Translations under genes and position numbers: made by a program
Notes under the pieces: model-generated
The model's database searches: none
Seen by the model: only the letters and a program-made list of their open reading frames with translations
What the model was told of the DNA's origin: nothing
DNA from: Lacunisphaera sp.
GTDB lineage: Bacteria; Verrucomicrobiota; Verrucomicrobiia; Opitutales; Opitutaceae
DNA length: 64,000 bases
Assembly (NCBI GenBank): GCA_009695095.1
Contig: SIBQ01000012.1
Location: forward strand, 1-64,000
Direction of reading: 5' to 3'
Shown here: positions 3,428 to 58,139 of the stretch, piece after piece
How the letters are laid out: the number at the start of each line of letters is the position of its first letter
Numbering within the stretch: the first letter of the stretch is position 1

Positions 3428-5101
3428 TCAGTCTTTCTTGGATGCCTCGTCGAAAATATCGCCGAGGTTCGTAAGGTCGGAGGCGCCGGTGGTCTTGGCG
3501 AACTGATCGTAGGTTACCGTCTCAGCTGCGAGCTGCTCGGCCGAGTAGTTCGCGGCTTTGATGCTCAGGCCGATGCGGCGCTGCTCGCGGTCGATCTTGA
3601 TGACGCGAGCGGACACTTCCTGGCGAGGCTTGAGCACGTCCTTCACCTTGTCGACGCGGTCTTCCTGTATCTGGCTGATGTGCACGAGACCATCGATGCC
3701 GTCCTTTAATTCGACGAAGGCGCCGAAGGTCGTGATTTTGGAGATTACGCCGGGCACCACGTCGCCGATGCGGAAGAAGCTGTCGATGTCGGTCCACAGG
3801 TCGGTGACGAGGTGCTTCATGCCGAGGCTGATGCGCTGCAGGTTCGGGTCGACGTCGAGGACGATAGCGTCCACCTCATCACCCTTCTTGAGCATCTCGG
3901 ACGGATGGTTGATCTTGCGGGTCCAAGACATGTCGGAGACGTGCACCATGCCGTCGATGCCCTCCTCGAGTTCGACGAAGGCACCGTAGGTGGTTATATT
4001 GCGCACCTTGCCGCGGACGCGGGCGCCCATCGGGTAGTTGTGGCGGACCATGTCCCACGGGTTGGGTTCGAGCTGGCGGAGGCCGAGGGAAATTTTATGC
4101 CCCTCCTTCTGGATGCCGAGGACAACCGCATCGAGCTCCTGGCCGACTTTGAGCAACTCTGAGGGCTTGGTGATTCGCTTGGTCCAGGACATCTCGGTGA
4201 TGTGGACGAGACCCTCGACGCCGGGCTCAAGCTCGATGAACGCGCCGTAGGGCACAAGATTGACGACCTTGCCGTGGATCTTGGAGCCGACGGGGAACTT
4301 GTGGTCGATGTTGTCCCACGGATTGTTCTTGGCCTGCTTGAGGCCGAGAGAGACGCGCTCTTTCTCGCGGTTGATGTCGATGATCATCACCTCGATCTCC
4401 TCGCCCTGTTTAAGCATCTCGGACGGATGGCCGATACGGCCCCAGCTCATGTCAGTGATGTGCAGCAGGCCGTCCATGCCATCGAGGTCGATGAACGCGC
4501 CGAAATCGGTGATGTTCTTGACGACGCCCTTGCGGATCTGGCCGGGCTGCAGCTTCTCCAGGAGGTCGCGGCGCTTGTTGATGCGCTGCTCCTCGATGAG
4601 CTCGCGGCGGGAGAGCACGATGTTCTGCCGTTCGTAATTGATCTTGAGGACCTTGAAGTCGTAGGTCTGGCCGACGTATTGATCCAGATTCTTGGGCGGC
4701 TGGATGTCGATGTGCGAGGCGGGCAGGAAGGAATCGACACCGATCGAGACGATCAGGCCGCCCTTGACCTTTGCTTTGACGCGGCCGGCGACGACGGCGC
4801 CCTCCTGGCACTTCTGGAGGATGTTTTCCCAGTTCTTCCTCTGCTGGGCCTGCTCGTAAGAGAGAATGGGGTTGCCTTCCCTGTCCTCGAGCTTCTCAAG
4901 GATGACCTCGATGGTGGAGCCAATCTGCAATTCGCCGAGGTCAGCGAATTCGTTGGCGGAGATGATGCCTTCCGCTTTGCCGCCGATGTCAACGACGACT
5001 GCATTGGCGCGGATTTCGGTGATGACACCCGAGACGATGGAGCCTTCCTTCAGCTTGTCGAAGGAGCTCTGGGCGAGCAGTTCTTGCATTAACGAACTCA
5101 T
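3428..5101 (-). CDS. rpsA: 30S ribosomal protein S1
   Basis: Binds mRNA and the 30S subunit so that messages with weak ribosome sites can be translated. The 557-residue protein contains six S1 (OB-fold) repeats starting near residues 19, 100, 185, 270, 355 and 440. The last four carry the typical GAF(I/V)EL...GLVHI pattern, while the first two are divergent, as expected for the ribosome-binding half. Length matches the family. The ATG at 5101 has no evident Shine-Dalgarno sequence, which is common for rpsA and fits autoregulation, though that is an inference. A strong terminator follows. The gene is convergent with the sigma factor gene. Confidence 0.95.
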   Translation of the reverse strand: MSSLMQELLAQSSFDKLKEGSIVSGVITEIRANAVVVDIGGKAEGIISANEFADLGELQIGSTIEVILEKLEDREGNPILSYEQAQQRKNWENILQKCQEGAVVAGRVKAKVKGGLIVSIGVDSFLPASHIDIQPPKNLDQYVGQTYDFKVLKINYERQNIVLSRRELIEEQRINKRRDLLEKLQPGQIRKGVVKNITDFGAFIDLDGMDGLLHITDMSWGRIGHPSEMLKQGEEIEVMIIDINREKERVSLGLKQAKNNPWDNIDHKFPVGSKIHGKVVNLVPYGAFIELEPGVEGLVHITEMSWTKRITKPSELLKVGQELDAVVLGIQKEGHKISLGLRQLEPNPWDMVRHNYPMGARVRGKVRNITTYGAFVELEEGIDGMVHVSDMSWTRKINHPSEMLKKGDEVDAIVLDVDPNLQRISLGMKHLVTDLWTDIDSFFRIGDVVPGVISKITTFGAFVELKDGIDGLVHISQIQEDRVDKVKDVLKPRQEVSARVIKIDREQRRIGLSIKAANYSAEQLAAETVTYDQFAKTTGASDLTNLGDIFDEASKKD

Positions 5102-28802: not shown

Positions 28803-29406
28803 GGCCACGCCGGCGGGTTGCTACAGACGTGTAAACTGGCTGGCCGGAGGCCGGAAGAATTGAACGGTCCAGCCCCTGGCTGCGTCTGTCCCGTTGTAGT
28901 ATGCTAGTGTGTTAGGTGTAGGGCCGTCTAGGGGTAGACGGCCCTACTTACGCCCCCCCTCGCAGCCTCACCGCCGCGGGCAATGATGTTGCCGAGCCTC
29001 GTGTTGGAGATCGTGAACGCAAAGATGGCAAGCCCGGGACACAGGAAGCAGATGGCCATCCTCGTCGAGCACGACGGGATGTGCTCCCGGTGGACAGCAT
29101 ATCGGTATCCGAGCCTGGGCCGTTCCGCCCATCGCCATCTGGCCGATCACCGTGCCCGAAACGGGAGCGGCTGGTCATACGCAGACATGAACTCGAGGCC
29201 CTGCCTCTCCACTATGGCTATCGCCGGATCGCCAAGTCCTTGGCGAAGTCGTTCCATCGCTATGGAATCACCGAGACCGTGGAGCGCGAGGTGAGCGCCT
29301 TCGCATGCGAAGGCCCAGACCGAGGCCACTGGTGGCGCCAGTCCCAAGTGCGGTTTTATTTTTTAAGCATGGCAGATATTCCCGACGCGCGGACATCTGC
29401 CGGCGG
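28803..29406. other. 600-base gap with protein fragments of unknown origin
   Basis: No intact gene. On the minus strand, three different frames in turn give plausible protein-like pieces, for example FLCPGLAIFAFTISNTRLGN near 28985-29045 and DSIAMERLRQGLGDPAIAIV near 29210-29260, as expected for a decayed membrane or transport gene with multiple frameshifts. I cannot name the family. Confidence 0.35.
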
Positions 29407-29967
29407 TCACTTCATCTTATGGTCGGGATCGTTGGCTTTCGTATACCGGTCAAGTTTGGCGGGATCCTTCGGCCAGTCCGGCCGCAGACGCACATCCTGG
29501 TCGCCGGCCACCAAACCCGGCGCGGCATGCCCGCCTTGGGCGGAAGCCGGCCGTATCTCCCACCAGCACTGGCCGCGGTGGTTGTGCTCGTGGTCCACGA
29601 CATAACCGGCCTCGCTAAGCATCGGCCCGGTCCAACCCATGCAATGATCGCAATAATCGCGGTAATTATTCAGTCCGTTGCGCAACAAAAATCCCCGCGA
29701 TGGACAGTCATGGAAGTCCATGCGGTACACATCCTCGCGGTGGGAGATGTTAAACCCAAGACTGGGCGACTCCTCCAGGAGCGTATGACCCCAGTATTTC
29801 AGCATGCCCGGAATCCCCTCGTTACGGATCAGGTCGCGCGCATGACGCTGGGAGTCATGGTTGATGGCCTCGTTCCAATACTCCCGCACCAAGGCGTGCC
29901 CCCCGGTCCGCTCCAGCCAGCCGAAGGTCCACTCGTAGTGGCCACAGAAATCATAACAACCGATCAT
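29407..29967 (-). CDS. Cysteine-motif protein B, ATC-hydrolase-like (paralogous pair)
   Basis: A 186-residue cytosolic protein whose key segment is DCPSRGFLL...YRDYCDHCMGW...NHRGQCWWEI. The layout CP-(about 16)-YC.HC-(about 25)-G.CWW matches that of the upstream protein at 29964. The general pattern resembles the L-2-amino-thiazoline-4-carboxylate hydrolase-like family (conserved CP, a second cysteine pair and a late C), which would imply a cysteine-dependent hydrolase; that assignment is tentative. The ATG at 29967 overlaps the previous stop (ATGA) and has a perfect AAGGAGG seven bases upstream, so equal-stoichiometry expression is likely. Confidence 0.6.
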   Translation of the reverse strand: MIGCYDFCGHYEWTFGWLERTGGHALVREYWNEAINHDSQRHARDLIRNEGIPGMLKYWGHTLLEESPSLGFNISHREDVYRMDFHDCPSRGFLLRNGLNNYRDYCDHCMGWTGPMLSEAGYVVDHEHNHRGQCWWEIRPASAQGGHAAPGLVAGDQDVRLRPDWPKDPAKLDRYTKANDPDHKMK

Positions 29968-30476
29968 AAACAGGCCTCCTTGATTTGTTGCAGATCTTGG
30001 GGCGCGAGGCCGGCGGCAGGCCGCGCATAAGTGTGGCAGCAACTGCCGTTGCCACCGCTGAGCCGCATGGTCAGGCCGGCCGCCTCGGCGCGAGCGGAAC
30101 CGAGATAGTAACAATGCTGGCAATATTCGCGCACAATCTCGCGCCCGCCCGCCCGCAGGTGCTTGAGGGCGGGGCATTCCCGCACCCGCACTTCCACCCG
30201 ATCCGGCTGCTCGACGACCTCCACCGCCGAACCCGGCTCGGCCGCGAAAAATGCCCGCCAGTAACGGGCGACCGCGTTGAGACCGCCCTTCGACCACTGC
30301 CGGTTCACCGGGGCGAAATAGCCGCGACCCATTTCTTCCAGGTAACGCTGCCAGACATCCCGGCCCAGCCGCCTGAGCATGAAGCGAAAGGTCGAATTGA
30401 CCGCGTAGTAGAAGTCCGGGGATCCCTGGGGCTTCGTATCAGTGTACGGCAAGTCGGATGCGACGGGTTGGTTCAT
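29964..30476 (-). CDS. Cysteine-motif protein A, ATC-hydrolase-like (paralogous pair)
   Basis: A 170-residue protein with ECPALKHL...VREYCQHCYYL...GNGSCCHTYAR, the same cysteine architecture as its downstream neighbour. The N-terminal half (PDFYYAVNSTFRFMLRRLGR, DVWQRYLEEMGRGYFAPV) is helical, and the C-terminal half carries the cysteines. I use the ATG at 30476, with GGAG nine bases upstream; an in-frame start at 30506 is also possible. It follows the FGGY kinase gene by 243 bases on the same strand. A heterodimeric enzyme formed by A and B is an inference from the overlap and paralogy. Confidence 0.6.
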   Translation of the reverse strand: MNQPVASDLPYTDTKPQGSPDFYYAVNSTFRFMLRRLGRDVWQRYLEEMGRGYFAPVNRQWSKGGLNAVARYWRAFFAAEPGSAVEVVEQPDRVEVRVRECPALKHLRAGGREIVREYCQHCYYLGSARAEAAGLTMRLSGGNGSCCHTYARPAAGLAPQDLQQIKEACL

Positions 30477-30719
30477 AAGAAAATTCTCCAGGGAGGGCCG
30501 GCTCAAACAAGGTGGCGGTAAAATTTACGGGGTGAAAGGGAGCAGTGTGGAAAGCCGGTGCATTGGCAACAATAACTTCACCATCGCCAATGGCATGCCG
30601 GTGCTTCCGCGCGCGACTGGTCGGCGTAAATTGCCGGAATTCCACGCCTGCCCTACTCAGGGGCGCTACACTATCTGGAGTTAGTTTGACCATAGGGGAA
30701 AGCGCGCTGGGCAATTCCG

Positions 30720-32102
30720 CTATGGTCGCTCAAGTCCGAAACGCTTTCCGGCATAAATTGCAACAGCGGGCGCCTGTGGCTCGACTACGCGGTCGCTGTG
30801 AACCATGGCGAGAAGCGCGTCGGTGTGACTGCCATGAACCCCCGCCGCGACTGCGCCAAACGCTGCCGCCCCAAGGCAGGCGCGCTCGTGGCACCGCGGA
30901 GCGATGATGGTGGCATCGAGCATGTCAGCGTTGATTTGCAGCCAGGTATCGCTGCGCGCACCGCCGCCGGTGGCGATCACCCGGCGCACGGCCCGCACGC
31001 CCTGCACTCGGCGCAACAGCGTTCGCTGCGTCGCGCTGATCCGCTCCATCAAACCGCGCACGATCGCGGCATGCCGCAGGTCCGCATCCTCCCCTGCCAC
31101 GGATTCTGGTAAGGCGCCCGGTGACACCGTGGCCGCCAAGGCCACCAACTGAGTAATGCTAAGGTGAGAGGCAAATTGCCGCTGATAGTCTTCGAGCTGG
31201 TTTGCCCCCGCCGGATCAAAGGCTAGCCGATAGAACCTTCCGTCCAAGTGCGGGCCATGGTAACAATCCGCCACCGGCTCGACCGCGTCCACCAGCATCA
31301 TTGCGGCCAAGACGCTACCCGTGGAGATGCTGGCGCCGGCCAGCCGATCAAGACCAGATCCGATCGCGGCCACGTGGTGGTCCAAGCCGCCCACGGCAAA
31401 ACACACCCCGGGCGGCAGGCCTATGAAATCCAGCGCGCGAGGCACGGTCCGACCACACGGTGTCCCTAGCCGCAGCGGAAGTGATAACGCGGTGCGCGGC
31501 ACAGCAAAGAATTCCAGCGCCTCCGTCCACCACTCGCCCTTGGCGGTCGAATAAAGCCCGGTAAATGCCGCCGTGCTCCCGTCACCCACCACCTCGCCCG
31601 TCAACGCAAAGGTAAAATAATCTGACAGTGTCATCACCCGCGCTGTTCGCGCCCAGAGGGCGGGCTCATGGCGCTGATACCAGCGCCACTTTACTGATGC
31701 GCACTCCGGCGCCAGGCCGGCTAAGCCCGTCGTGCGCTGAAATCGCTCTGAGTGAGCAAATTCGCCGACCTCCATATCCAGGGGATGCGCTCTCCGATCA
31801 GTCCAAATGATCAGTGGTGTGAGTGGCTCGTCGTTGCGGTCGAGCAGGACGAACGTGTTGGCTTGCGAAGAATAAGACATCCCCACGATATCCTTCGCGC
31901 TCGCGTTCGCCTGGCGCAGGGCGTCGGCCAGACCTTGACGCAGCAGACGCCAAAAATCGCCCACGGGCAGTTCGCTCCGCCCCGGCAACGGTGACGCTTT
32001 AGCAACGGCAATGCGACCGAGGCCTCTTTGCGCACCAAAAGCATCGAAGAGGCCAACCTTAAAGTAGGTAGTACCGAAATCGATGCCGAGTAACAGGGCC
32101 AT
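30720..32102 (-). CDS. FGGY-family carbohydrate kinase
   Basis: An ATP-dependent sugar or polyol kinase, 460 residues. The N-terminal phosphate loop is LLGIDFGTTYFKVGLFD. The family regions IIWTDRRA, GGLDHHVAAIGSG and SISTGSV are seen, and the C-terminal adenosine-binding segment is VIATGGGARSDTWLQINADM. It is slightly shorter than xylulokinase (about 480-500) and the substrate cannot be fixed. The start is 17 bases after the ceramidase-like gene, so it is in the same operon; two small paralogous cysteine proteins follow. Confidence 0.86.
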   Translation of the reverse strand: MALLLGIDFGTTYFKVGLFDAFGAQRGLGRIAVAKASPLPGRSELPVGDFWRLLRQGLADALRQANASAKDIVGMSYSSQANTFVLLDRNDEPLTPLIIWTDRRAHPLDMEVGEFAHSERFQRTTGLAGLAPECASVKWRWYQRHEPALWARTARVMTLSDYFTFALTGEVVGDGSTAAFTGLYSTAKGEWWTEALEFFAVPRTALSLPLRLGTPCGRTVPRALDFIGLPPGVCFAVGGLDHHVAAIGSGLDRLAGASISTGSVLAAMMLVDAVEPVADCYHGPHLDGRFYRLAFDPAGANQLEDYQRQFASHLSITQLVALAATVSPGALPESVAGEDADLRHAAIVRGLMERISATQRTLLRRVQGVRAVRRVIATGGGARSDTWLQINADMLDATIIAPRCHERACLGAAAFGAVAAGVHGSHTDALLAMVHSDRVVEPQAPAVAIYAGKRFGLERP

Positions 32103-32119
32103 GGCGCAACGGGGATTTA

Positions 32120-33460
32120 TTATTGATCGACTAATAAGGCGAGGGTCGCGGTGACGACCCGCAGACCGTTTTCCGGACTAAACAGCGCGTTTGTTGCTTC
32201 ATATCCCCCGCGAGCGGCTGCCTCGGGCGTGACTATGTAGCCTTGCAGCTCGCCGTTAGCCATCGTGATGACAAAGGTCATGGGAACGCGGGCTTTTACC
32301 TCGAGCGCATATTCCACGAAAAACTCGCCAGGCCAGAAAACAAAATTCCAAGGCCCAAGCTGAATCACTTGAATCTCCGCCGGCGTGCAATTGGCGGCAG
32401 CGACTTCAAGCCGTCCGTCCGCCTTGGCCCGAGCCAGCGCCACCGCCTCCTCTGTGCCAAACCAATCACACTCGGCGGTGCGCACCGCCGCCCGCGGGGC
32501 CTGCGCGGCACGGAGCGCCTCAAACCGCGCCTTGACCTCGTGCGCCCGTGTTTCGGCTTCCTCCATAGAGGGTAAAGCGCGCATTTGCAGTTCGACATGC
32601 GTGCTGCGCACCCGCACCGGCAAGGCTTGGGTGTAGGCGATGCTCGAAAATACTCCTGCGATGGCCACCCCGAGCTTTTCCCCCAGCCGGCGGGCCTCCG
32701 GGAAGGTATTTTCCCTGGTAACGTGACGCGGGCTCTGATTGCCCGAGGCGCCGTTGTGATAGAGGACGGGACAATGTTTTGGCAGTATCCCCCGCGCCCG
32801 CAAATATTGCCGGGTAAAGTGAGGAAAATCGCCGCTGATCAACGTCGAGTCTTCGTGCAGCACGGTGGGGTGCATCGCGTAGACAACCATACAAGCCAGT
32901 GGCCTGTGGTCCGCCATCGCCCGCACGATGAAAACGGGAACCTCCGGATCCGCCGGGCCGGCCGGATCATGGCGGTTCGTGCCCACGCCCTCCGCGCGGG
33001 CAACCGCCAGGCCCGCCTCGGCGGGCAGGGCGGAACGAACTGCCTCACAACCCACCTCAACCATGCTATCGGCCACCCATTTCAAATAAGAGGGATCGGC
33101 TTTCGGGACCACCGGGTCGGCGGTGTTGCTCAAGTAGTCGAGCATCACGGGCCCGGAATGCGTGTGCGTTGCCGTGATGGCAATCGCTCCGGTCGGCACC
33201 CCAGTCCTGATGCTGATGCGACGGCGCACATCGTTAACGAGTTGCTTGCCGACGAAGATCAGGTCATTCGCGATGAAGAGCACCTTCTGGTCCTCATGCC
33301 ACAGGAAGAGCGCCCCGGTCTCCAGCTGATCGTGCACGCCGGTGCTGAAACGCGGCACATGCGGATAGCCAAATAGAAAGACGCTGTCCTGCGGCGTTAG
33401 CATGGCCGTGGCGGCGCCAGCCCAAAGAGTGGGGTCCGCCGAATGAGAACTAGTCTGCAT
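32120..33460 (-). CDS. Neutral/alkaline ceramidase-like hydrolase
   Basis: A 446-residue protein with the N-terminal fold of neutral ceramidases. WAGAATAMLTP opens it. The metal motif THTHSGP, the second histidine segment YAMHPTVLHEDSTLISGDF and YHNGASGNQSPRH are all conserved. It lacks a signal peptide and the ceramidase C-terminal domain, so it is probably a cytosolic zinc amidase/hydrolase acting on a small molecule rather than on ceramide. Relatives in sugar-catabolism clusters have no firm function. It is first gene of the minus-strand operon and divergent from the DeoR regulator, 105 bases away. Confidence 0.8.
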   Translation of the reverse strand: MQTSSHSADPTLWAGAATAMLTPQDSVFLFGYPHVPRFSTGVHDQLETGALFLWHEDQKVLFIANDLIFVGKQLVNDVRRRISIRTGVPTGAIAITATHTHSGPVMLDYLSNTADPVVPKADPSYLKWVADSMVEVGCEAVRSALPAEAGLAVARAEGVGTNRHDPAGPADPEVPVFIVRAMADHRPLACMVVYAMHPTVLHEDSTLISGDFPHFTRQYLRARGILPKHCPVLYHNGASGNQSPRHVTRENTFPEARRLGEKLGVAIAGVFSSIAYTQALPVRVRSTHVELQMRALPSMEEAETRAHEVKARFEALRAAQAPRAAVRTAECDWFGTEEAVALARAKADGRLEVAAANCTPAEIQVIQLGPWNFVFWPGEFFVEYALEVKARVPMTFVITMANGELQGYIVTPEAAARGGYEATNALFSPENGLRVVTATLALLVDQ

Positions 33461-33565
33461 AAGGAACCGCCTAGCGTGCCGCGCGCGCGCTGCGTGTAAA
33501 TGTTATAATATGTTCGTTTTCCTATTTAGTTGACTTTTAATCACATTAATCGGCCTATCGTTTAG
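33461..33565. promoter_or_regulatory. Divergent promoter with putative DeoR-type operator
   Basis: This AT-rich 105-base gap separates the ceramidase-like gene from the DeoR regulator. TGTTCGTTTTCC at 33511-33522 matches the TTCGTTT half-site seen in many DeoR-family operators (for example GlpR and AgaR sites). TATAAT at 33504-33509 and its minus-strand counterpart TATTATAAC could serve as -10 boxes, and TTGACT at 33530-33535 could serve as a plus-strand -35. Autoregulation and control of both operons by the regulator is an inference. Confidence 0.5.
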
Positions 33566-34342
33566 GTGAGAAATCTGCCCCCCGCCGTGCGCCAGACCCA
33601 GATTCGCGAACGCTTTGCCTCGCGGTCGGGGGTGTCCGTCTCGGGGTTGGCGCGCGAATTCGATGTGAGCGGGATGACGATCCGGCGCGATCTCGCCGCC
33701 CTCGAGGGCACGGCGAACATCCAGCGCACCCATGGGGGTGCCGTCCTTACCCAGCGGATGATGCTGGAGTTCGACTACCGCGGCCGCCGCGAGCACAACC
33801 GCGCCGCCAAGCAGGCCATCGCGGCCGAGGCGCGGAAACTCGTGCAGCCCGGCCAGCGCCTGCTCCTTGACACCGGTACTACCACGCTCGAACTCGCCGC
33901 CCTCTTGAAGGACGCCCAAAATCTCACCATCATCACCCCGAGCCTCGCGGTCGCTTCCGAGTTGCAGCATGCACCGGGCGTCGAGGTGATTCTTCTCGGA
34001 GGGGTGATCCGCCGCGGCAGCCCCGACCTGACGGGCCCAGTGACCGAGCACTGCCTCGAACTTTTTGCCGCCGACCTCGCCTTTCAGGGGGCGGACGCCA
34101 TCGGCAACGACGGCACAATCTACAACTCCGATCTCCGCCTAGCCCGCGTGGACAAGATCATGCGCCGGGTGGCAAACCGGTTCTGTGTCCTGGCCGACCA
34201 TACCAAGATCGGCCTTACGGCCCTCGCCCGCAACGGTACGCTGGCCGACGTCGATTATTTTATCACCAACACCGCCGCCCCCGCCGCGGCGCTCAAGCGC
34301 TTCGCCCGGCTCGGGCCTCAGGTCATCACCGTCAGCCCCTAA
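33566..34342 (+). CDS. DeoR-family transcriptional regulator
   Basis: A 258-residue repressor. The N-terminal helix-turn-helix (VSVSGLAREFDVSGMTIRRD, then LAALEG...RTHGGAV) is the DeoR signature. The C-terminal domain contains the sugar-phosphate-binding LLDTGTTTLELAALL and VEVILLGGVIRRGS. The start is taken as GTG at 33566 and is uncertain. Ten bases after its stop the class III aminotransferase begins, so it heads the plus-strand operon while facing the ceramidase-like/kinase operon. A phosphorylated sugar, perhaps the kinase product, is the likely inducer. Confidence 0.88.
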   Translation: MRNLPPAVRQTQIRERFASRSGVSVSGLAREFDVSGMTIRRDLAALEGTANIQRTHGGAVLTQRMMLEFDYRGRREHNRAAKQAIAAEARKLVQPGQRLLLDTGTTTLELAALLKDAQNLTIITPSLAVASELQHAPGVEVILLGGVIRRGSPDLTGPVTEHCLELFAADLAFQGADAIGNDGTIYNSDLRLARVDKIMRRVANRFCVLADHTKIGLTALARNGTLADVDYFITNTAAPAAALKRFARLGPQVITVSP

Positions 34343-34352
34343 ACTTTCCTTC

Positions 34353-35738
34353 ATGAATACCACTCCACTTGAATCCTTCTCCCTCGACTGGGGACGCGTC
34401 GATCTGCAGCGCGTCCCTCATCTGCCTGTCCCGCCACCGGGACCGCTCTCGAAGCACTGGCACGACCGCTGCACGAAGCACTTCAAGGGGCTCAGCAGTC
34501 AGGTGAAGCTATTTCCCGTCTCCTTCGAGTCGGGCGCCGGTTGCGTCCTGCGCGATGTCGACGGCAACGAATACATCGATTTTTCCTCGGGCATCTACGT
34601 CACCACGCTGGGCCACTGTCATCCCAAGATCAGTGAAGGCATCGCCAAGGCCGCCGCGCAGCTGATGAACGCGCACGACTTTACCACGCCCATCAAAACC
34701 GAGCTGATGGAGAAGCTTGCCGCCATCCTCCCGGGTGATCTGAACGGATTCCAGCTCTACGACTCCGGCACCACCGCGGTGGAAGCCGGCATCCGCGTGC
34801 TCCGGGCCGCCACCAGCAAGCACGAGACCGTCAGCTGCTTCAATGATTTCCACGGCAAGACTTACGGCGCCGTCTCGCTCGGCCACATCCGCTCCCACGT
34901 CTACGGCGCGGTCCGGGCCCCCGGCGCGCACATGGTGCCTCGGCCGGATCCCTATCGTCCGGTTTGGGCCAAGCCCGACGGCTCGATCGACACCGACAAA
35001 TATATCGAATTCTACGGCCAATACCTCGACAAGGGCACCATCGGCGCGGTCGCCGGCTTCGTGCTCGAGCCCATCCAAGGCTGGGGTGGCTCCGTCATGC
35101 CACCGGATGATTTTTTCCCGAAACTCCGAAAGTTCTGCGACGCCCGCAAAATCCTACTCATGGCCGATGAGGTGCTCACCAGCTGGGGTCGCACCGGCAA
35201 GTGGCTCGCCATGGAGCACTGGGGTGTCGTGCCCGATGTCGTCACGCTGGGCAAGGGCTTCGGCAACGGTTTCCCTGTCACCTGCGTCGCCGTGCGTGAA
35301 CCGTTCAAGGAGTGCTTCGAGAGCATCTCCGCCTCGAGTAGTTACGGCGGCAACCCCATGGCCTGCACCGCTGCTCTTATCTCCACCCAGATTATTGAGG
35401 AGGAAAATCTACTCGAGCACGCGACGCACCTCGGCAACCTCGCCCTCAAGCGCATGGAGCGCATGAAACAGCAGCACAAAATCATCGGCGATGTTCGCGC
35501 CAAAGGCTGCCTCATGGGCATCGAACTCGTGAAGGATCGCGCCACCAAGGAGCCTTTCGATCAGGCCGGCACCCTGGTTTATCAGAAGGCGTTCCGCAGG
35601 GGCCTCGCCTGGATTCCAGCCGGCCACATCCTCCGCATGAGCCCGCCCATTGTCATGGACGAAACCACGCTGCTCAAGGGCCTCGATCTCATCGACCAAG
35701 CCATCGGCGAAACAGCCCAGGAACTGGGCTATTCCTGA
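34353..35738 (+). CDS. Class III aminotransferase (PLP-dependent)
   Basis: A 461-residue fold type I transaminase related to 4-aminobutyrate and 2,2-dialkylglycine aminotransferases. Landmarks are FSSGIYVTTLGHCHPKI, LYDSGTTAVEAGIRVLRAAT, MADEVLTSWGRTGKW (cofactor Asp) and the Schiff-base lysine in VTLGKGFGNGFPVT. I start at the ATG at 34353; the open frame upstream overlaps the regulator gene. It lies between a DeoR regulator and an aldolase, so the amino donor or acceptor is probably a sugar-derived carbonyl. The precise substrate is not evident. Confidence 0.88.
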   Translation: MNTTPLESFSLDWGRVDLQRVPHLPVPPPGPLSKHWHDRCTKHFKGLSSQVKLFPVSFESGAGCVLRDVDGNEYIDFSSGIYVTTLGHCHPKISEGIAKAAAQLMNAHDFTTPIKTELMEKLAAILPGDLNGFQLYDSGTTAVEAGIRVLRAATSKHETVSCFNDFHGKTYGAVSLGHIRSHVYGAVRAPGAHMVPRPDPYRPVWAKPDGSIDTDKYIEFYGQYLDKGTIGAVAGFVLEPIQGWGGSVMPPDDFFPKLRKFCDARKILLMADEVLTSWGRTGKWLAMEHWGVVPDVVTLGKGFGNGFPVTCVAVREPFKECFESISASSSYGGNPMACTAALISTQIIEEENLLEHATHLGNLALKRMERMKQQHKIIGDVRAKGCLMGIELVKDRATKEPFDQAGTLVYQKAFRRGLAWIPAGHILRMSPPIVMDETTLLKGLDLIDQAIGETAQELGYS

Positions 35739-35757: not shown

Positions 35758-36588
35758 ATGACTGCCTACCGACTCAAGCGACTGTTCCACACACGCACGC
35801 GCCGCTGTTTCGATGTCGCGATCGACCACGGAATTTTCAACGAATACGGATTCCTCGCTGGCATTGAGAACATCGAACACGCCGTTGCCACGGTTGCTGC
35901 AGCCGCACCCGATGCTGTTCAGCTCAGCATCGGCCAGGCCCGGCATCTTCAGAATCTCCTCGGCCGGTTTAAGCCCTCACTCGTACTTCGCGTCGATGTC
36001 GCCAACGTCTACGGCGCGAAGCTACCGCGCAAACTCCACTGTCGCATGATCGACGATGCCGTCGAGCAGGCACTGCGCCTCGACGCTGCGTGCATGTGCG
36101 TCAATCTTTTCCAAATCCCCGGTGAGCCGGAAGTAGGCGAGGACTGTGTGAACAACATCCTCCGGCTCAAACCACTAAGCGACCGCTATGGGATGCCCAT
36201 GATGATCGAGCCCCTCGTCTTCCAGCCTAATGAAAAGACCGGCGGCTACATGGTCGATGGTGACGAGAAGAAAATCATTCCGCTCGTGCGCCAGGCGGTC
36301 GAACTCGGTGCCGATGTCGTCAAGGCTGATCCCACGGCCGACATCGGCATCTATCATAAGGTGATCGAATCAGCAAGCGGAATACCCGTGCTCGTGCGTG
36401 GCGGCGGCAAGGTAACCGATCGGGATATCCTCCAGCGCACCCACGACCTGCTTGCCCAAGGTGCCTCCGGTATCGTTTACGGCCGCAACATCATTCAGCA
36501 TCCGAATCCTGCCGCCATCACCCATGCACTCATGGCCGTGGTGCACGATGGCGCCTCCGCCGCGGAGGCGCTGAAATTCCTCGCCTGA
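35758..36588 (+). CDS. Class I aldolase, DhnA/DeoC-LacD (FbaB-like) family
   Basis: A 276-residue TIM-barrel Schiff-base aldolase. FDVAIDHGIFNEYGFL is the typical start (AxDHG), MIEPLVFQ is mid-barrel, and the lysine in GADVVKADPTADIG is the likely Schiff-base residue. RGGGKVTDRD and GIVYGRNIIQHPNP are the phosphate-binding end. It probably cleaves a phosphorylated ketose to a three-carbon phosphate plus an aldehyde. The ATG at 35758 is 19 bases after the aminotransferase. The 3' end of a second copy survives at 47601, next to nagA. Confidence 0.87.
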   Translation: MTAYRLKRLFHTRTRRCFDVAIDHGIFNEYGFLAGIENIEHAVATVAAAAPDAVQLSIGQARHLQNLLGRFKPSLVLRVDVANVYGAKLPRKLHCRMIDDAVEQALRLDAACMCVNLFQIPGEPEVGEDCVNNILRLKPLSDRYGMPMMIEPLVFQPNEKTGGYMVDGDEKKIIPLVRQAVELGADVVKADPTADIGIYHKVIESASGIPVLVRGGGKVTDRDILQRTHDLLAQGASGIVYGRNIIQHPNPAAITHALMAVVHDGASAAEALKFLA

Positions 36589-36595
36589 TTTTCCC

Positions 36596-37735
36596 ATGAA
36601 ATCTCCGTCAAATTCCTCTCCCGTCCGCATCGGTATCATCGGCGGCGGCCTGATGGGCCGCGAGGCCGCCAGCGCACTCGCCCGGTGGTTCACGCTGGTG
36701 GATTATCCCGTCCGCGCCGTGCTCATCGCGGTCTGCGATCTGCAACCCGGGCTGCTCGATTGGTTCCGGCAGGTGCCGACCGTGAAGCATCTGGATACGA
36801 ACCACCGCGATCTGCTCAAGCGTGACGACGTGGACGTGGTCTATGTGGCGGTGCCGCACCACCTGCACGAGGAGATCTACCTCGATGTGTTGCGCGCGGG
36901 AAAAGACCTCTTTGCAGAAAAACCCTTTGGCATCGACCTTGCCGCTTCGCGCCGCATCCGCGACGAGGCAGTTAAGCTCGGCCGTTTCGTACGCGTGTCG
37001 TCGGAGTTTCCCTTTCTGCCCGGCGTGCACCGCGCGTGGACACTGGCGGCCAGCGGATCGCTCGGCCGGATCATCGAAGCGCGCTGCGCCTTCTTGCATT
37101 CAAGCGATCTCGATCCCACCAAGCCGATCAACTGGAAGCGCCAGGCGAAGTACTGCGGCGAGATCGGCGTCATGGGTGACTTGGGCATGCATGTCACGCA
37201 CGTGCCGCTGCGACTCGGCTGGAAACCGGCGAGCGTTTACGCACAGCTGCAGAAAATCTATCCCACGCGACCCGATGGCAAGGGCGGCACGGCGGCCTGC
37301 GACACGTGGGACAACGCCACGCTGCACTGCACCGCACCCATCGCCGGTCATCCCACTCCGCTCACGCTGGAGATGAAGCGGCTCGCGCCGACCGAGACCA
37401 ACACTTGGATCTTCGAGGTGCTCGGCACCGATCGCGGGGTGCGTTTCTCGACGAAGGAGCCGAAAACTTTTTGGACCTACCGGCGTGACAAGGAACAGTG
37501 GTGGGAAAAGACGGATCTCGGTTTCGGCACGCCGTTCAAGACCATCACCGGCGGGATATTCGAGCCAGGCTTCCCCGACATCCTCCAGCAGATGTGGGCC
37601 GCCTTCATCGCCGAGCGCGCCGGGCTGCTCGGCGACAAGTTCGGCTGTGCCACACCCGACGAGGCGGTGGCGCACCACGAAATCTGGGCCGCCGCCCTGG
37701 TTTCGAATCAGGGGCAGAAGGTCGTCAGCCTGTAG
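36596..37735 (+). CDS. Gfo/Idh/MocA-family oxidoreductase
   Basis: A 379-residue NAD(P)-dependent sugar or cyclitol dehydrogenase. The Rossmann loop is IGIIGGGLMGREAASAL. The family motif is seen as GKDLFAEKPFGID (E-K-P). EIGVMGDLGMHVTHVPLRLG supplies the catalytic Asp-His pair (GDLGMH). It begins eight bases after the aldolase and ends the plus-strand operon. Likely substrate is a sugar, aminosugar or inositol derivative used in the same pathway. Confidence 0.87.
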   Translation: MKSPSNSSPVRIGIIGGGLMGREAASALARWFTLVDYPVRAVLIAVCDLQPGLLDWFRQVPTVKHLDTNHRDLLKRDDVDVVYVAVPHHLHEEIYLDVLRAGKDLFAEKPFGIDLAASRRIRDEAVKLGRFVRVSSEFPFLPGVHRAWTLAASGSLGRIIEARCAFLHSSDLDPTKPINWKRQAKYCGEIGVMGDLGMHVTHVPLRLGWKPASVYAQLQKIYPTRPDGKGGTAACDTWDNATLHCTAPIAGHPTPLTLEMKRLAPTETNTWIFEVLGTDRGVRFSTKEPKTFWTYRRDKEQWWEKTDLGFGTPFKTITGGIFEPGFPDILQQMWAAFIAERAGLLGDKFGCATPDEAVAHHEIWAAALVSNQGQKVVSL

Positions 37736-53523: not shown

Positions 53524-54735
53524 ATGAAAATTACCAAAGTTGTCTGTACTCCCGTGCACATTCCCATGGAGGCGCCCCTGCGCTGGAGCATGGGGGTCGA
53601 GAATGGCACCACGCGCACGATCGTTGAGCTCCATACCGACGAAGGCGTGGTTGGTCTCGGCGAAACGTACGGAGGGGCGAGCACGGCGGCGCGCTTCCGC
53701 AGCGCCGAGCCCTTTTTTATCGGCTACGATCCGCTCGAGGTTTCGCGCATCGTCAAAAACTTCGAGGTGTTCCGCACCACGAGCGAGCAGTCGGCGCTGA
53801 CGATCGAGCTCCGCTATGTCGCGGCCGCGATCGAGATGGCGTGTTGGGACATCATCGGCAAAATTCAGAACAAGCGCGTGTGCGATCTCTGGGGTGGGGC
53901 CGACAGCGAACTCGTGCCGTTCGTGGCCTACCTGTTTTACCGGTATAAGAGCCGCGATGGAAAATTGGGTGGCGAAGACGGACCCGAGAGCATCTGCGAT
54001 CAATACGCCGACCACGTCAGCCGGTTCGGCTTCACCGGCCTCAAGCTCAAGACTGGGGTGCTGAACCCCGTAATCGAGCGCGCGACGGTCAGGCGCCTGC
54101 GCGAAACTTTCGGCGACCAGATCCAGCATTTGCGCGTCGATCCAAACCAGGTCTGGTGCACCGCGACCGCAATCAATGAGCTGAAGAAACTTGCCGAGTA
54201 CGATCTCGAGTATTGCGAGGATCCCACCTTTAATCTCGAGGGCATGTCCCGGGTGCGCGCCACGGTGCCGGTGCCGCTCGCCACCAACATGGCGGTGCTT
54301 AATTTCGACCAGGTCGCCCCCATGCTGCGCATGTGGGCGCTCGATGTGATCCTGGTCGATCCGTATTTCTGGGGTGGCATCACGCAGTGCAAAAAACTCG
54401 CGGCCGTCGCGGAGACATTTGGCTTCGGTCTGGCCATCCACAGCGACCGGGAACTCGGTATTGGCATGACCGCCAGCCTCCATCTTTGGGCGACAACGCC
54501 GTCGCTCTGCCACAAATACGACTCCCACTATCCGTTTCAGGTCGACGACATCATCACCCAGCCGCTGCGCTGGAAAGACGGCTCGGTGGCGCTGCCCAAG
54601 GGCCCCGGCCTCGGCGTCGAAATTGATCGCGACAAGCTTAATAAATATCACCAGCTCTATCTGAAAAAAGGTGACGAGATCGAATTCTTCGATTCCCAGC
54701 GCCCCGGCTGGATTCCCCACGTGCCACTATGGTGA
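53524..54735 (+). CDS. Enolase-superfamily sugar-acid dehydratase, glucarate dehydratase-like
   Basis: A 403-residue Mg-dependent dehydratase. The KxK base motif is GFTGLKLKTG; the three metal ligands fall in LRVDPNQVW, YCEDPTFN and VPLATNM; the catalytic His is in AIHSDRELGIGM. ATNM and HSDRELGIGMTASLH place it in the glucarate dehydratase subgroup rather than mandelate racemase proper. The likely reaction is dehydration of an aldarate or aldonate to a 2-keto-3-deoxy acid. It is the first gene of a tightly overlapping operon (stop overlaps next start by seven bases). Confidence 0.85.
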   Translation: MKITKVVCTPVHIPMEAPLRWSMGVENGTTRTIVELHTDEGVVGLGETYGGASTAARFRSAEPFFIGYDPLEVSRIVKNFEVFRTTSEQSALTIELRYVAAAIEMACWDIIGKIQNKRVCDLWGGADSELVPFVAYLFYRYKSRDGKLGGEDGPESICDQYADHVSRFGFTGLKLKTGVLNPVIERATVRRLRETFGDQIQHLRVDPNQVWCTATAINELKKLAEYDLEYCEDPTFNLEGMSRVRATVPVPLATNMAVLNFDQVAPMLRMWALDVILVDPYFWGGITQCKKLAAVAETFGFGLAIHSDRELGIGMTASLHLWATTPSLCHKYDSHYPFQVDDIITQPLRWKDGSVALPKGPGLGVEIDRDKLNKYHQLYLKKGDEIEFFDSQRPGWIPHVPLW

Positions 54736-55499
54736 GTCTGGCCCAATTGCCACGGCCATTCGTCGTAGGCGTGGTGGTCGAACGCGATTCCGCGGCGGCA
54801 GCCCGCGTGGCAGCCGCCGCTTTCCGGACTGGCGCCGACGCGGTGGAGCTCAATCTCGCTTCGCTGCGCGACAATGCGTGTCTGGACCGGCGTTTCTTCA
54901 CGCGCTGGCGCCGGCCGCTTTACACCTCCTGCCGTCGGGCGCCGTTCATGGCGGTTTACGGCGCAGCATTTGCCCGGCTACCGGCACTCTCCGACGAAGC
55001 GCGGATGGCCCGGCAACTCGCGTTGCTCGACCCGGGGTCCGCGGGGCTCGACATCGAAGCGGACACCTTTGCCTCCAATTGCGACGAGTGGACCGACGAC
55101 CGCACCGCGATCCGGCGTCAACGCGCCGTCGCAGCTGCAGCCCACCGGCACGGCGCGGCCGTGATCTGGTCGTGGCACCCGCCACGCAAACTCACGCAGA
55201 CGGAGGCTTTACGGGGAGCGTGGAAACTGCGGGATCGCGGCGCCGATTTCGTAAAAATTGTCGAGCGCGTGCGCACCCGCGCCGAGGCACTCGACTCGCT
55301 CGCGATCAGCCTTGTACTGCGCGAGAAGCTCGGGAGGCCGTTTGTGTTTCTCGCGCTCGGCGCGGAGGCGGTGCGGTTTCGTCCGTTCATGACGGCGTTT
55401 GGAGCGTCGTATCTGCTCGCACGTCCGCCGGTGGGCGCGAACCGTCTGCCTGCCCAGCCGCTCGTGGCGTCCGCGCGCGCCTTGATCGACCTCAGATGA
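54729..55499 (+). CDS. Type I 3-dehydroquinate dehydratase-like protein
   Basis: A 256-residue TIM-barrel protein patterned like type I dehydroquinase. ADAVELNLASL is the early Glu strand, LYTSCRR follows, the mid-barrel histidine is in VIWSWHPPRKLT, and the Schiff-base lysine is in GADFVKIVERVRTRAEA. The usual (E)xRxD is altered (ELNLASL), so it may act on a different 2-keto-3-deoxy or cyclic acid rather than dehydroquinate. It overlaps the dehydratase upstream by seven bases and the next ORF by four, consistent with a catabolic rather than shikimate role. Confidence 0.68.
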   Translation: MVSLAQLPRPFVVGVVVERDSAAAARVAAAAFRTGADAVELNLASLRDNACLDRRFFTRWRRPLYTSCRRAPFMAVYGAAFARLPALSDEARMARQLALLDPGSAGLDIEADTFASNCDEWTDDRTAIRRQRAVAAAAHRHGAAVIWSWHPPRKLTQTEALRGAWKLRDRGADFVKIVERVRTRAEALDSLAISLVLREKLGRPFVFLALGAEAVRFRPFMTAFGASYLLARPPVGANRLPAQPLVASARALIDLR

Positions 55500-55951
55500 G
55501 AATCTCCGCCGTCGTCAGTCTGCCCACCGGCCAAAATCTGCGACTACTCGCGCCACCCGGCGTCGAGGACCCGGTTTATTATATCAGTCAGGGGATGCCG
55601 CCGGAACTGGATGCGTTGCGCCGCGGACAGGTGCGGGTGGAGCAATGCAGCCAGCGCATCAGCGACGCCGAGGGCGGCCCGCGCAGCCAATTCGTGCCCG
55701 GCCGCGACGTGGCGGGCCCGCTGAAAGATTTCCGCGAGACGTTTCCGGGCAACGGCCAGACCGACATGGCTGCCGTGTTTCTCGCCTGCCGAGAGATCGT
55801 CTCCACGGGCTTCATCCGGCCGGACCGCGTGCTGCAGCTCATCACCGAGCACGGCGAGAACGACGGCTATGGCCTGCTCGGAAATATTTTTGCCATCGCC
55901 TATTTGAAGGGGCTGATGGAGCCGTTATTCGGCAAGCCCGGTTTCCGATGA
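55496..55951 (+). pseudogene. Mannonate dehydratase-like (UxuA) gene with an internal deletion
   Basis: The 151-residue frame starts like a UxuA-family TIM barrel (MRISAVVSLPTGQNLRLLAP, GVEDPVYY...MPPELDALRR) and ends like its C-terminus (GRDVAGPLKDFRETF, NGQTDMAAVFLACREI, ENDGYGLLGNIFAIAYLKGL). Full proteins are about 330-400 residues. Here about 200 central residues, with the metal and catalytic sites, are missing, joined in frame near EGGPRSQFVPGRD. ATGA overlaps tie it to both neighbours, so it may still be translated to keep downstream coupling. Confidence 0.65.
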
Positions 55952-57417
55952 AGGCCGTCATCGCGCAGTTTCTTTTTGAGAGCAACACCTTCAATCCGGC
56001 GGAAGCCGAACTCGCGCTTTTCACCCAGGGCGGCACGTGGCGCGCCGGCGAGCCCGCGGTGCGGACGTGGTCGGGCGAAGCGCCGTCCCGGATAAGCGGC
56101 AGCCTCGGCGTGCTCGAGGCGGCCGGCTGGACGACCGCCCCGGTGTTGGCCGTCATGTGTGGCTCACCCGCGGGTCGACTCAGTCGCGCGTGTTTCGCAC
56201 GGATTCGCGCCGAGCTCGCCTTGGCGCTTCGGACAGCGCTGCCGGCGGACGCGATTGTGCTGCACCTGCATGGCGCGGCCTGCGCGACGGGCGAGGATGA
56301 CGTCGAGGGCAATTTGCTTGCGCTGGTGAGGGAGGAGCTTGGATTCAGGGGGACGCTAGTGGTGTCGCTCGACCTTCACGCCAATATCACCCGGCGTATG
56401 CTGCGGCACGCTGATGCGCTGACGGCTTACCGGACCATGCCGCACACCGACTTTGTTGCGACGGGCGCCCGCGCCGCGCGGCTCGTGCTGCAGGCCGGCC
56501 TCCGCCGCACGCGTACGCTGGCGAAGGTCGCCGCGCTCATCCCGCCGACGGACACGCACGACGCCGAGGGCCGGTTCGCGGAAATTCTGGCCCGCGCCCG
56601 CCAGCTCGAATCGCGCCCGGGCATTGAGGATATCAGCGTGTTTCCCGTGCAGCCGTGGCTCGATGTTGCGGAACTCGGAACAAGCGTTGTCATCACGGGC
56701 ACTAACCCGGTGGAGGCGTGCGCGGCGGCGGCGGAATTGGCGAACCTTTGGTATGCACAGCGCCATGCGTGGCAAGCCGGCGTGCAGCCTTGGTCGGAAA
56801 TCAAGGTGCGGTTGCGGGAGAAGCGTTCGCGGCCGTGGATACTGGTGGATTCGGCTGACGCGACAACCGGTGGCTCGGCTGGTCGCAGCGCCGAGGTGCT
56901 CCGCGAATTGCTGCCGCTGGCAGATGAGCTGCCGGGCGAAGTGCTGCTTTGGGTCGTTGATCCGGCGGCGGTGGTGGCGGCGGAGCACGGCGCCGCCCGA
57001 TTCATCCTGGGCGAGCAGGGCATCGAGCTGACAGCGCAGGTGCGTTGGACGGGGGAGGGACGCTATGTTGCGCGCGGCCGCTCGTACACCGGACAGACTT
57101 TTTCGATGGGCCATGCGGCGGTGCTCAGTGCGGGACGGTTGCGGGTGGTGGTGAGCAGCGCGCCGTCCATTGGGGCCGATCCGGCATTCTATGAGTGCGT
57201 GGGCCTCGCACCCGACGACGCACTGGCGGTGCAAGTAAAGAGCCTTATGGGCTGGCGCGCGGGCTATGCGGCTGAGGCAGGTTGCGGGCTTGTGTTTGAC
57301 GGACCTGGTTGCACGTCCCTTAGCTTTGCCCGGCTGCCGTTCAGCGCGCCCCACCGCGACATTTTTCCCCTCAACGAAAATCCTCAAACTCCGGTAACCT
57401 TATGGCAATCGAGCTGA
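55948..57417 (+). CDS. M81-family metallopeptidase (MlrC-like)
   Basis: A 489-residue protein of the microcystinase C (MlrC) family. VIAQFLFESNTFNP is the typical start (E-N-TF), VLHLHGAACATG and VVSLDLHANITRRM hold the putative zinc ligands, and YRTMPHTDF follows. The C-terminal MlrC domain contains DSADATTGGSAG and TGQTFSMGHAA. Members hydrolyse small peptides or amides. It sits in a sugar-acid operon (ATGA overlap upstream, 16-base overlap with the SDR downstream), so an amide of a sugar acid is a plausible substrate, though unproven. Confidence 0.85.
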   Translation: MKAVIAQFLFESNTFNPAEAELALFTQGGTWRAGEPAVRTWSGEAPSRISGSLGVLEAAGWTTAPVLAVMCGSPAGRLSRACFARIRAELALALRTALPADAIVLHLHGAACATGEDDVEGNLLALVREELGFRGTLVVSLDLHANITRRMLRHADALTAYRTMPHTDFVATGARAARLVLQAGLRRTRTLAKVAALIPPTDTHDAEGRFAEILARARQLESRPGIEDISVFPVQPWLDVAELGTSVVITGTNPVEACAAAAELANLWYAQRHAWQAGVQPWSEIKVRLREKRSRPWILVDSADATTGGSAGRSAEVLRELLPLADELPGEVLLWVVDPAAVVAAEHGAARFILGEQGIELTAQVRWTGEGRYVARGRSYTGQTFSMGHAAVLSAGRLRVVVSSAPSIGADPAFYECVGLAPDDALAVQVKSLMGWRAGYAAEAGCGLVFDGPGCTSLSFARLPFSAPHRDIFPLNENPQTPVTLWQSS

Positions 57418-58139
57418 CCGACCTAGTGTGCGTGGTGACGGGCGCGGGCGAAGGCGTGGGCCGCGGCCTGGTCCATGGTTTTGTCAAACGCGGTGCGCGC
57501 GTCGTGGCGGGCGTGCTCAGTCTGGATAAATCGGCGGCGATCGTCTCACCGGCCCACCCTGTGAAACTTGACGTGACGAAGGCAGACGAGGTGTGCGCCG
57601 CCGTGGACACGATCGTGGCGCATTACGGACGCATCGACGTGTGGATCAACAACGCCGGTATCTATCCACGCCAGCCGGCGGACGAAATGAAATTTGCCGA
57701 CTGGCGCCAGGTGCTCGACACGAATCTCGACGGGGTGTGGCGGTGCTGCGAAGCGATTATTCCGCACCTGAAGCGCCAGGGTAGCGGAGTTATCATCAAC
57801 GTCGGGAGCATCCAACTTCGGCTTGGCAGCGCCCAACTCACCCACTATCTCGCGAGCAAGGGCGGACTTGTCGGGCTGACGCGCGGCCTTGCGCGCGATC
57901 TCGGGCCCCATGGCATCCGTGTTAACTGTTTACATCTCGGCGCCGTCCTAACCGAGGGTGAGCTGCGATCGTTTTCCGACTCGGCGGCACTTTTGAAAAC
58001 CGTCGAGGAAAGGCAGGCGCTGCGCGGCCGGCTTACACCGGAGACGGTCGAACCGGTGTTCGCGTTCTTCGCGTCTCCCGAAAGCCGCGACATTACCGGC
58101 CAGTGCCTGGCTGTTGACCGTGGCTGGAGCCACGACTGA
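57402..58139 (+). CDS. Short-chain dehydrogenase/reductase
   Basis: A 245-residue classical SDR. The cofactor loop is VVTGAGEGVGRGL; NNAGIYPRQP, the catalytic Ser in INVGSIQLRLG, and the Tyr-Lys pair in HYLASKGGLVGL are all present. The C-terminal QCLAVDRGWSHD is typical. It is the last gene of the enolase operon, overlapping the M81 gene by 16 bases. It probably oxidises or reduces a hydroxyl of the sugar-acid intermediate. Confidence 0.87.
   Translation: MAIELTDLVCVVTGAGEGVGRGLVHGFVKRGARVVAGVLSLDKSAAIVSPAHPVKLDVTKADEVCAAVDTIVAHYGRIDVWINNAGIYPRQPADEMKFADWRQVLDTNLDGVWRCCEAIIPHLKRQGSGVIINVGSIQLRLGSAQLTHYLASKGGLVGLTRGLARDLGPHGIRVNCLHLGAVLTEGELRSFSDSAALLKTVEERQALRGRLTPETVEPVFAFFASPESRDITGQCLAVDRGWSHD

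Follow-up and report, generated by a model that had tools for sequence, protein, structure and literature searches.

The TRAPP/V4R fold is known from vesicle transport, in TRAPP subunits such as Bet3 (TRAPPC3) and TRAPPC6, and from ligand sensing, in bacterial V4R proteins such as MopR, PoxR, DmpR and MsvR. A study of Asgard TRAPPC3 describes four helices and a four-stranded sheet that dimerise via the N-terminal helices and, in the Thorarchaeota protein, a zinc held by four cysteines that ties the sheet to a helix round a cavity (PMC10933270). Two other proteins, YhcH (NanQ; DUF386) and NanM, help the lyase NanA: YhcH is a Zn anomerase that hands NanA its substrate in open form, and in vitro NanM has the same effect (PMC8141875). 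Here we describe two adjacent genes, A and B, in a 64,000-nucleotide stretch of Lacunisphaera sp. DNA (contig SIBQ01000012.1; hereafter the window), whose products probably combine, as two halves, into a single undescribed enzyme that assists in sugar-acid breakdown. The pair is a real, recurrent two-protein system that carries no name in the libraries searched: neither protein matched a Pfam or NCBIfam family at cut-off, a sequence search of solved structures with B returned no match below E 0.7, tblastn of plasmids with B returned zero matches, and no functional paper on the pair turned up within one open-access library.

Pairing, paralogy and the conserved site

The pair proper occupies positions 29407-30476, within a span of four genes that runs from 29407 to 33460 (Table 1). 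An earlier note on this DNA had described an ATGA overlap between A and B, a perfect AAGGAGG ahead of B and a CP ... YC.HC ... C spacing common to both proteins, and all three are in place; the spacing corresponds to C101-P102, Y118-C-Q-H-C122 and C146-C147 in A, and to C88-P-S, Y105-C-D-H-C109 and C134-W-W in B. Searching a public genome collection with B, we took the best 80 of 144 matches, with up to 8 kb on each side, as a set of close loci. A and B overlap in 75 of these (by 4 bases in 63, 7 in 11 and 1 in 1) and are spaced by 22 and 46 bases in two more, while three loci (L015, L044 and L046) hold a B with no adjoining A. Within 20 nt upstream of B, 47 of 80 related loci carry GGAGG (AAGGAGG in 27), 21 a shorter GGAG or GAGG, and 12 neither.

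The same pairing was found with profile searches of Verrucomicrobiota genomes, 387 for the B profile and 194 for the A profile. B matched in 56 genomes, strongly (E below 1e-60) in 12 and as divergent relatives only in 44, and an A-type gene was also present in 28 of the 29 short loci from this search (11 strong, 18 divergent). The A profile matched in 22 genomes, all 22 of which also bear B, a proportion that runs from A to B only. One of the 27 rows of the A profile was B itself and the other 26 lay within 90 bases of a same-strand B match, the B of G153 (at 3764) having been identified by eye. Matches to A were also present in G252, G282 and G259, two of the three in G259 overlying B matches, and 78 of 85 B open reading frames had a same-strand A within 1.5 kb, counts that are not independent because the loci overlap. 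No natural A-B fusion was found among the open reading frames of loci L083-L171.

Three genomes in which the two genes lie apart keep both of them. In G199 A lies 61 kb from a lone B on the same contig, and in G387 (L044) and G388 (L046) it lies on a different contig from B; each of the three has a single A and a single B, and the additional A-profile row in G387 is B itself. G389 (L015) has a second, complete A-B pair. This retention of a lone A with a lone B is as expected of subunits or of one pathway. The earlier note would have held a heteromeric enzyme unlikely had homologues of A and B never co-occurred, and the opposite was clearly observed; at the level of sequence the pairing is well supported and close to certain. 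Two further loci, L129 (from the same genome as L111) and L130, hold three-gene B-A-B arrays adjoining the lyase described below. L016, a 3.4-kb contig labelled Actinomycetota, carries a lyase-like open reading frame with an A and a B that are 71% and 77% identical to those of the window; a binning error is more likely here than transfer.

A and B are paralogous, as the earlier note had supposed. They align by BLASTP (E 2e-7 over 92 aa) and profile to profile (probability 96.5%, E 8.5e-10, 145 columns), compared with a probability of 0.1% for a negative control in which the B profile was set against the lyase profile. Alignments of 100 B-type sequences (81 close, 19 divergent) and 93 A-type sequences (75 close, 18 divergent) revealed that B has many invariant polar residues, with C88, P89, S90, Y105, C106, H108, C109 and C134 constant in 100 of 100. 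In A, P102 is constant in 93 of 93, whereas 90 sequences retain C101 and 84 retain C119 and C146, the cysteine losses falling in divergent members. Because B has invariant cysteines and histidine and A loses cysteines, B would carry the site and A would be a partner able to lose it. The four cysteines and one histidine constant in all 100 B sequences can be set beside the four-cysteine zinc site of TRAPP, a comparison of sequence positions only. Relative to locus L001, dN is 0.06 and dS 1.01 for B (dN/dS ~0.06) and dN is 0.10 and dS 0.82 for A (dN/dS ~0.12), indicating strong purifying selection on both genes.

Predicted fold

AlphaFold models were built for B from a 47-sequence alignment and for A from a 43-sequence alignment (pLDDT in Table 1) and compared with solved structures using VIA-align and Foldseek. 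In the VIA-align comparison Bet3 was the top match to the A model (Z 8.3, root-mean-square deviation 3.6, 129 aligned) and the first 18 rows were TRAPP chains, followed by the V4R sensors PoxR, DmpR and MopR and by H-NOX, placing the A model within the TRAPP/V4R superfamily fold. The top match to the B model was TPC6, with a middling score (Z 5.8, root-mean-square deviation 4.5, 127 aligned). NCBIfam MsvR, the model of a V4R protein, matched four of 24 family members (best E 7e-4). Because the same families head both lists, A and B are homologous and MsvR matches four members, a TRAPP/V4R fold is likely for both proteins, as far as models allow.

The predicted order of elements (helices, two strands, two helices, two strands) is that of TRAPP subunits and V4R domains, as is the placing of conserved cysteines, which sit where helices begin and in the final hairpin, and TRAPP subunits heterodimerise, as we propose for A and B. 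Unlike these proteins, A and B form a free-standing two-gene pair beside sugar-acid genes rather than a regulator or a vesicle-transport subunit, and B has an extra invariant YCxHC.

A linked lyase and the proposed role

In other lineages the gene adjoining A and B often encodes a lyase of the DHDPS family (PF00701) that belongs to a distinct subfamily. It resembles NanA, DapA and YagE in its match to PF00701 (E 8e-31), its invariant Y139 and its K167 (invariant in 17/17), which we take to be the Schiff-base lysine, and these place it in the DHDPS superfamily. It differs from DapA and NanA in its mostly GTxGEGP(W/F) and YDRGK-type motifs and in scoring below the NCBIfam dapA and nanA cut-offs, its similarity to dapA being weak and far under the cut-off. 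Across the 387 genomes the subfamily (E <= 1e-60) was found in 57, B in 56 and both in 44 (Fisher test, odds ratio 90, p 4e-35), although the test ignores genome kinship, and 13 lyase-bearing genomes have no B. The lyase lies within 3 kb of B in 35 of the 44 genomes, upstream on the same strand in 32 (that is, 32 of the 56 B-bearing genomes), downstream in two (G097 and G153) and on the opposite strand in one (G163). The gap between upstream lyase and B is 400-660 bases, about the length of A, in 26 of the 32, and in G173, G296, G302 and G328 a B directly adjoins the lyase. Among the close loci, the lyase is immediately upstream in 12 of the 73 with enough sequence, an HpcH/HpaI aldolase occurs anywhere in 35 of 80, and one or the other is present in 47 of 80. 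As read from these loci, the recurrent partner of A-B is a DHDPS/NanA-like lyase and not a kinase, and we consider it rather probable that A-B acts in the pathway of this lyase.

In genome G282, B carries a C-terminal DUF386/YhcH domain (PF04074; 104.5-112.3 bits versus a cut-off of 26.5; L153:5697-6935, L154:1580-2764 and L155:6487-7452), and in 27 of 75 loci a NanM-like kelch gene, which matches Pfam NANM, directly follows B; the sequences of YhcH and NanM themselves show no visible relation to A or B. To characterize the neighbours of divergent pairs, 142 genes from 35 of 40 fetched loci were compared with 136 control genes taken from single stretches elsewhere in 20 of these genomes and counted for the 25 top families of the control; gene calls were home-made, products below 130 or above 650 aa were excluded from both sets, and A, B and the lyase were excluded from the near set. 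BNR_2 (7), SDR (7), GntR (6), AKR (5) and GDSL (5) were found near A-B and at most once each in the control, while Epimerase (5 versus 4) and GDP_Man_Dehyd (3 versus 3) did not differ; the numbers are small and this enrichment is weak evidence. Taken together, the YhcH fusion, the kelch gene and the neighbouring families suggest the handling of a cyclic keto-sugar acid. In eight of 75 loci the gene directly after B encodes a 507-aa protein (e.g. L030:3153-4673) that matches GHL10 below the cut-off or not at all, its start lying inside the end of B in some. The N-termini of the A-type proteins at L154:1236-1811 and L155:7449-7985 look like twin-arginine export signals, and no such signal was seen on the B coupled to them; if these signals are real, B would have to travel with A.

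We propose that A and B would make one heteromeric protein of TRAPP/V4R fold, most likely a dimer formed via the N-terminal helices as TRAPP subunits pair, in which B would hold the working site (C88, C106, H108, C109 and C134), probably with zinc, and A would be a sister subunit that keeps the fold and not always the site. This protein would serve the degradation of a 2-keto-3-deoxy sugar acid (an ulosonic acid) at a step next to the DHDPS/NanA-like lyase, most likely by opening or readying the cyclic acid, which the lyase would then cleave to pyruvate and an aldehyde, and we infer for A-B the job that YhcH and NanM do for NanA. As a whole, this model of a TRAPP/V4R heteromer that readies a cyclic ulosonic acid is a tentative one. 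Its most far-reaching form, in which A-B would be the first catalytic, obligately two-subunit enzyme of TRAPP/V4R fold, metal-dependent, opening or dehydrating cyclic sugar acids for a new DHDPS-type lyase within a lyase-A-B module of more than one Verrucomicrobiota class, with A and B in no Pfam or NCBIfam family, we regard as unlikely.

Several observations weigh against parts of this proposal. As to the fold, the score of B is middling when taken alone, and its list after TPC6, mostly TRAPP chains, also includes BcsD, V4R, H-NOX and some trehalose-phosphatase chains. Foldseek found no match below E 0.001 for either model (best 4e-3 for A, with designed proteins among its best matches, and 0.045 for B, to human Bet3), and, unlike TRAPP and V4R proteins, A, B and the 24 family members matched no V4R or TRAPP Pfam model at E<=1. 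As to the pairing, G232 and G346 (80% complete) bear B and have no match to the A profile. As to the pathway, the lyase falls far under the nanA cut-offs (61.6 bits versus 382 for TIGR00683 and 80.7 versus 281 for NF003164), 12 of the 56 B genomes, including G282 with its YhcH fusion, have no lyase of the subfamily at E <= 1e-60, and 33 of the 80 close loci, some of them on short contigs, have neither the lyase nor an HpaI aldolase. Finally, fusion of B to an anomerase may indicate that the two act at adjacent steps rather than share one activity, and among 25 genomes only G164 has a stand-alone YhcH within 10 kb of A-B.

Alternative readings and the Lacunisphaera locus

A-B might instead supply a missing dehydratase that converts a sugar acid to a 2-keto-3-deoxy acid, which DHDPS or HpaI would then cleave. 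The 80 close loci carry the company that such a step would keep (SDR 22, Amidohydro_2 12, SGL 5, HpaI 35 and DHDPS aldolase 13), and this reading stays under consideration because only one of 25 genomes (G283; compared by eye) has an enolase-superfamily dehydratase (PF13378) less than 10 kb from A-B. However, 20 of the 25 have such an enzyme somewhere, with the IlvD/EDD family outside the search, the YhcH fusion is easier to reconcile with a keto acid than with an aldonic acid, and we know of no dehydratase of TRAPP/V4R fold, so that we judge this reading improbable. A second possibility is that A-B is a non-enzymatic pair that senses a ligand or redox state and controls the lyase or operon, as V4R does in MopR and MsvR. 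Both models resemble ligand-binding folds, the MsvR matches described above fit such a role, and a study of MsvR reports that the conserved cysteines of V4R are important for its redox-dependent binding to DNA (PMC3729527). Against this, Pfam and NCBIfam scans revealed no DNA-binding or other output domain in A or B, and the many invariant polar residues of B and its fusion to an enzyme-type domain also speak against it, making a sensor distinctly improbable.

The earlier note had favoured an ATC-hydrolase-like heteromeric enzyme that acts with the kinase on an amide- or thiazoline-like sugar derivative; spelled out, such a pair would work with the FGGY kinase and open a sugar-derived ring, whether cyclic amidine, lactam or thiazoline. 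The corresponding family, PF14196, scored 14.3 bits (E 0.071) against B, under its cut-off of 28.1, did not match A, and matched five of 24 relatives (best E 9.5e-4), all under the cut-off. Comparison by hhalign with three PF14196 members (L132-L134) gave a probability of 5.8% (P 0.0065) for A and 1% (P 0.054) for B, a weak signal in which the CP/C/CC register was aligned. The order of motifs is indeed the same, with CP followed by a helix-start cysteine and by a cysteine, often CC, near the end, and a distant common origin of A-B and PF14196 is plausible; membership is not borne out, since every A and B member tested falls below the cut-off, and PF14196 proteins, found in three of 145 genomes, occur as one match each and not as pairs, with zero matches in the window genome. 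L132 and L133, from two genomes of the window's own family, carry genuine PF14196 proteins with a twin-arginine-like N-terminus and a CCDH end that resembles that of A.

The kinase and the ceramidase-like protein were identified by family matches, as was the divergent DeoR regulator that the earlier note had listed with them. In a second genome of the same genus (G122) ceramidase, FGGY kinase, lyase, A and B are contiguous, which favours joint action of the kind proposed in that note, as does a ceramidase-like protein (L119:2130-3350), 29% identical to that of the window, which precedes a divergent lyase-A-B set by about 5 kb. However, homologues of the kinase and ceramidase were absent from 80 of 80 close loci and occurred together among the later loci (L083-L171) only in L142, from the same-genus genome, and the neighbours elsewhere are largely sugar-acid enzymes. 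A kinase-centred reading was set aside on these counts and kept as local linkage only: both genes are real neighbours of A-B in this genus and lie outside the general system. Of the heteromeric cysteine enzyme first suggested, the two-protein system stands by co-occurrence, whereas joint action with the kinase does not, and nothing found points to an amide- or thiazoline-like substrate; we consider the ATC-hydrolase-like reading a slim prospect.

Comparison with G122 also bears on the absence of a lyase beside A-B in the window. Over 5.7 kb, from 36552 down to 30841, window DNA matches G122 at 75.6%; the alignment picks up again at 30451 for A-B, and the stretch missing from the window is the lyase gene. 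The linked lyase gene is gone from the window genome, which retains on another contig a paralogue (G000:C19:2809-3681) that shares 47% identity with the query of a pairwise search. A remnant in the gap 30477-30719 was sought with the G122 lyase by tblastn and rejected, the best match (E 0.15) being at noise level and the junction alignment too gappy to place a scar. Around the paralogue (L139:2791-8518) lie a GntR/Peripla_BP_3 regulator, an aminotransferase, an M81-family protein and a RidA-like protein. That the window's A-B is a relic of this lyase loss is very unlikely, given the strong purifying selection on both genes and the retained paralogue.

Kinase and A, set apart by the 243-bp gap, may or may not share a transcript; in a scan of 29200-33700 promoter and terminator sites were no commoner than in shuffles, with none in the gap. 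A second cluster in the window (53524-58139) holds an enolase-superfamily match (54007-54633), an M81-like stretch (55942-57375) and an SDR-like stretch (57414-58130).

Table 1. Features of the A-B locus and its surroundings in the window
Feature	Position	Strand	Remark
Gene A, 170 aa; CP (C101), YCQHC (C119, C122), GNGSCC (C146)	29964-30476	minus	model pLDDT 93.0
Gene B, 186 aa; C88-P-S, YCDHC (C106, H108, C109), C134-W-W	29407-29967	minus	model pLDDT 86.6
ATGA stop/start overlap of A and B	29964-29967	minus	
AAGGAGG, B ribosome-binding site within the 3' end of A	29975-29981	minus	7 nt ahead of the B ATG
243-bp gap between kinase and A; position of the lyase gene in G122	30477-30719	minus	
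FGGY-family carbohydrate kinase, 460 aa; also near A-B in G122	30720-32102	minus	
Alkaline-ceramidase-like protein (PF04734), 446 aa; also near A-B in G122	32120-33460	minus	38.5 bits vs cut-off 32.1
DeoR-family regulator, divergent; syntenic in G122	33566-34342	plus	
Class III aminotransferase, divergent arm; syntenic in G122	34353-35738	plus	
DeoC/LacD-family (DhnA-type) aldolase, divergent arm; within G122-syntenic DNA	35758-36588	plus	
Gfo/Idh/MocA dehydrogenase after the divergent arm	36596-37735	plus	library match; G122 synteny established only for the preceding DNA

This locus illustrates that a single window can mislead, as a key partner gene is absent here and plain in relatives. Two unnamed families, of which B occurs in 56 of the 387 Verrucomicrobiota genomes sampled, now have a partner, a likely fold and a role that can be tested. 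Should A-B prove to be an enzyme, a heteromeric metabolic enzyme would join the vesicle-transport and ligand-sensing proteins known to have this fold, and assays of a lyase-A-B module that acts on an environmental sugar acid would come within reach.

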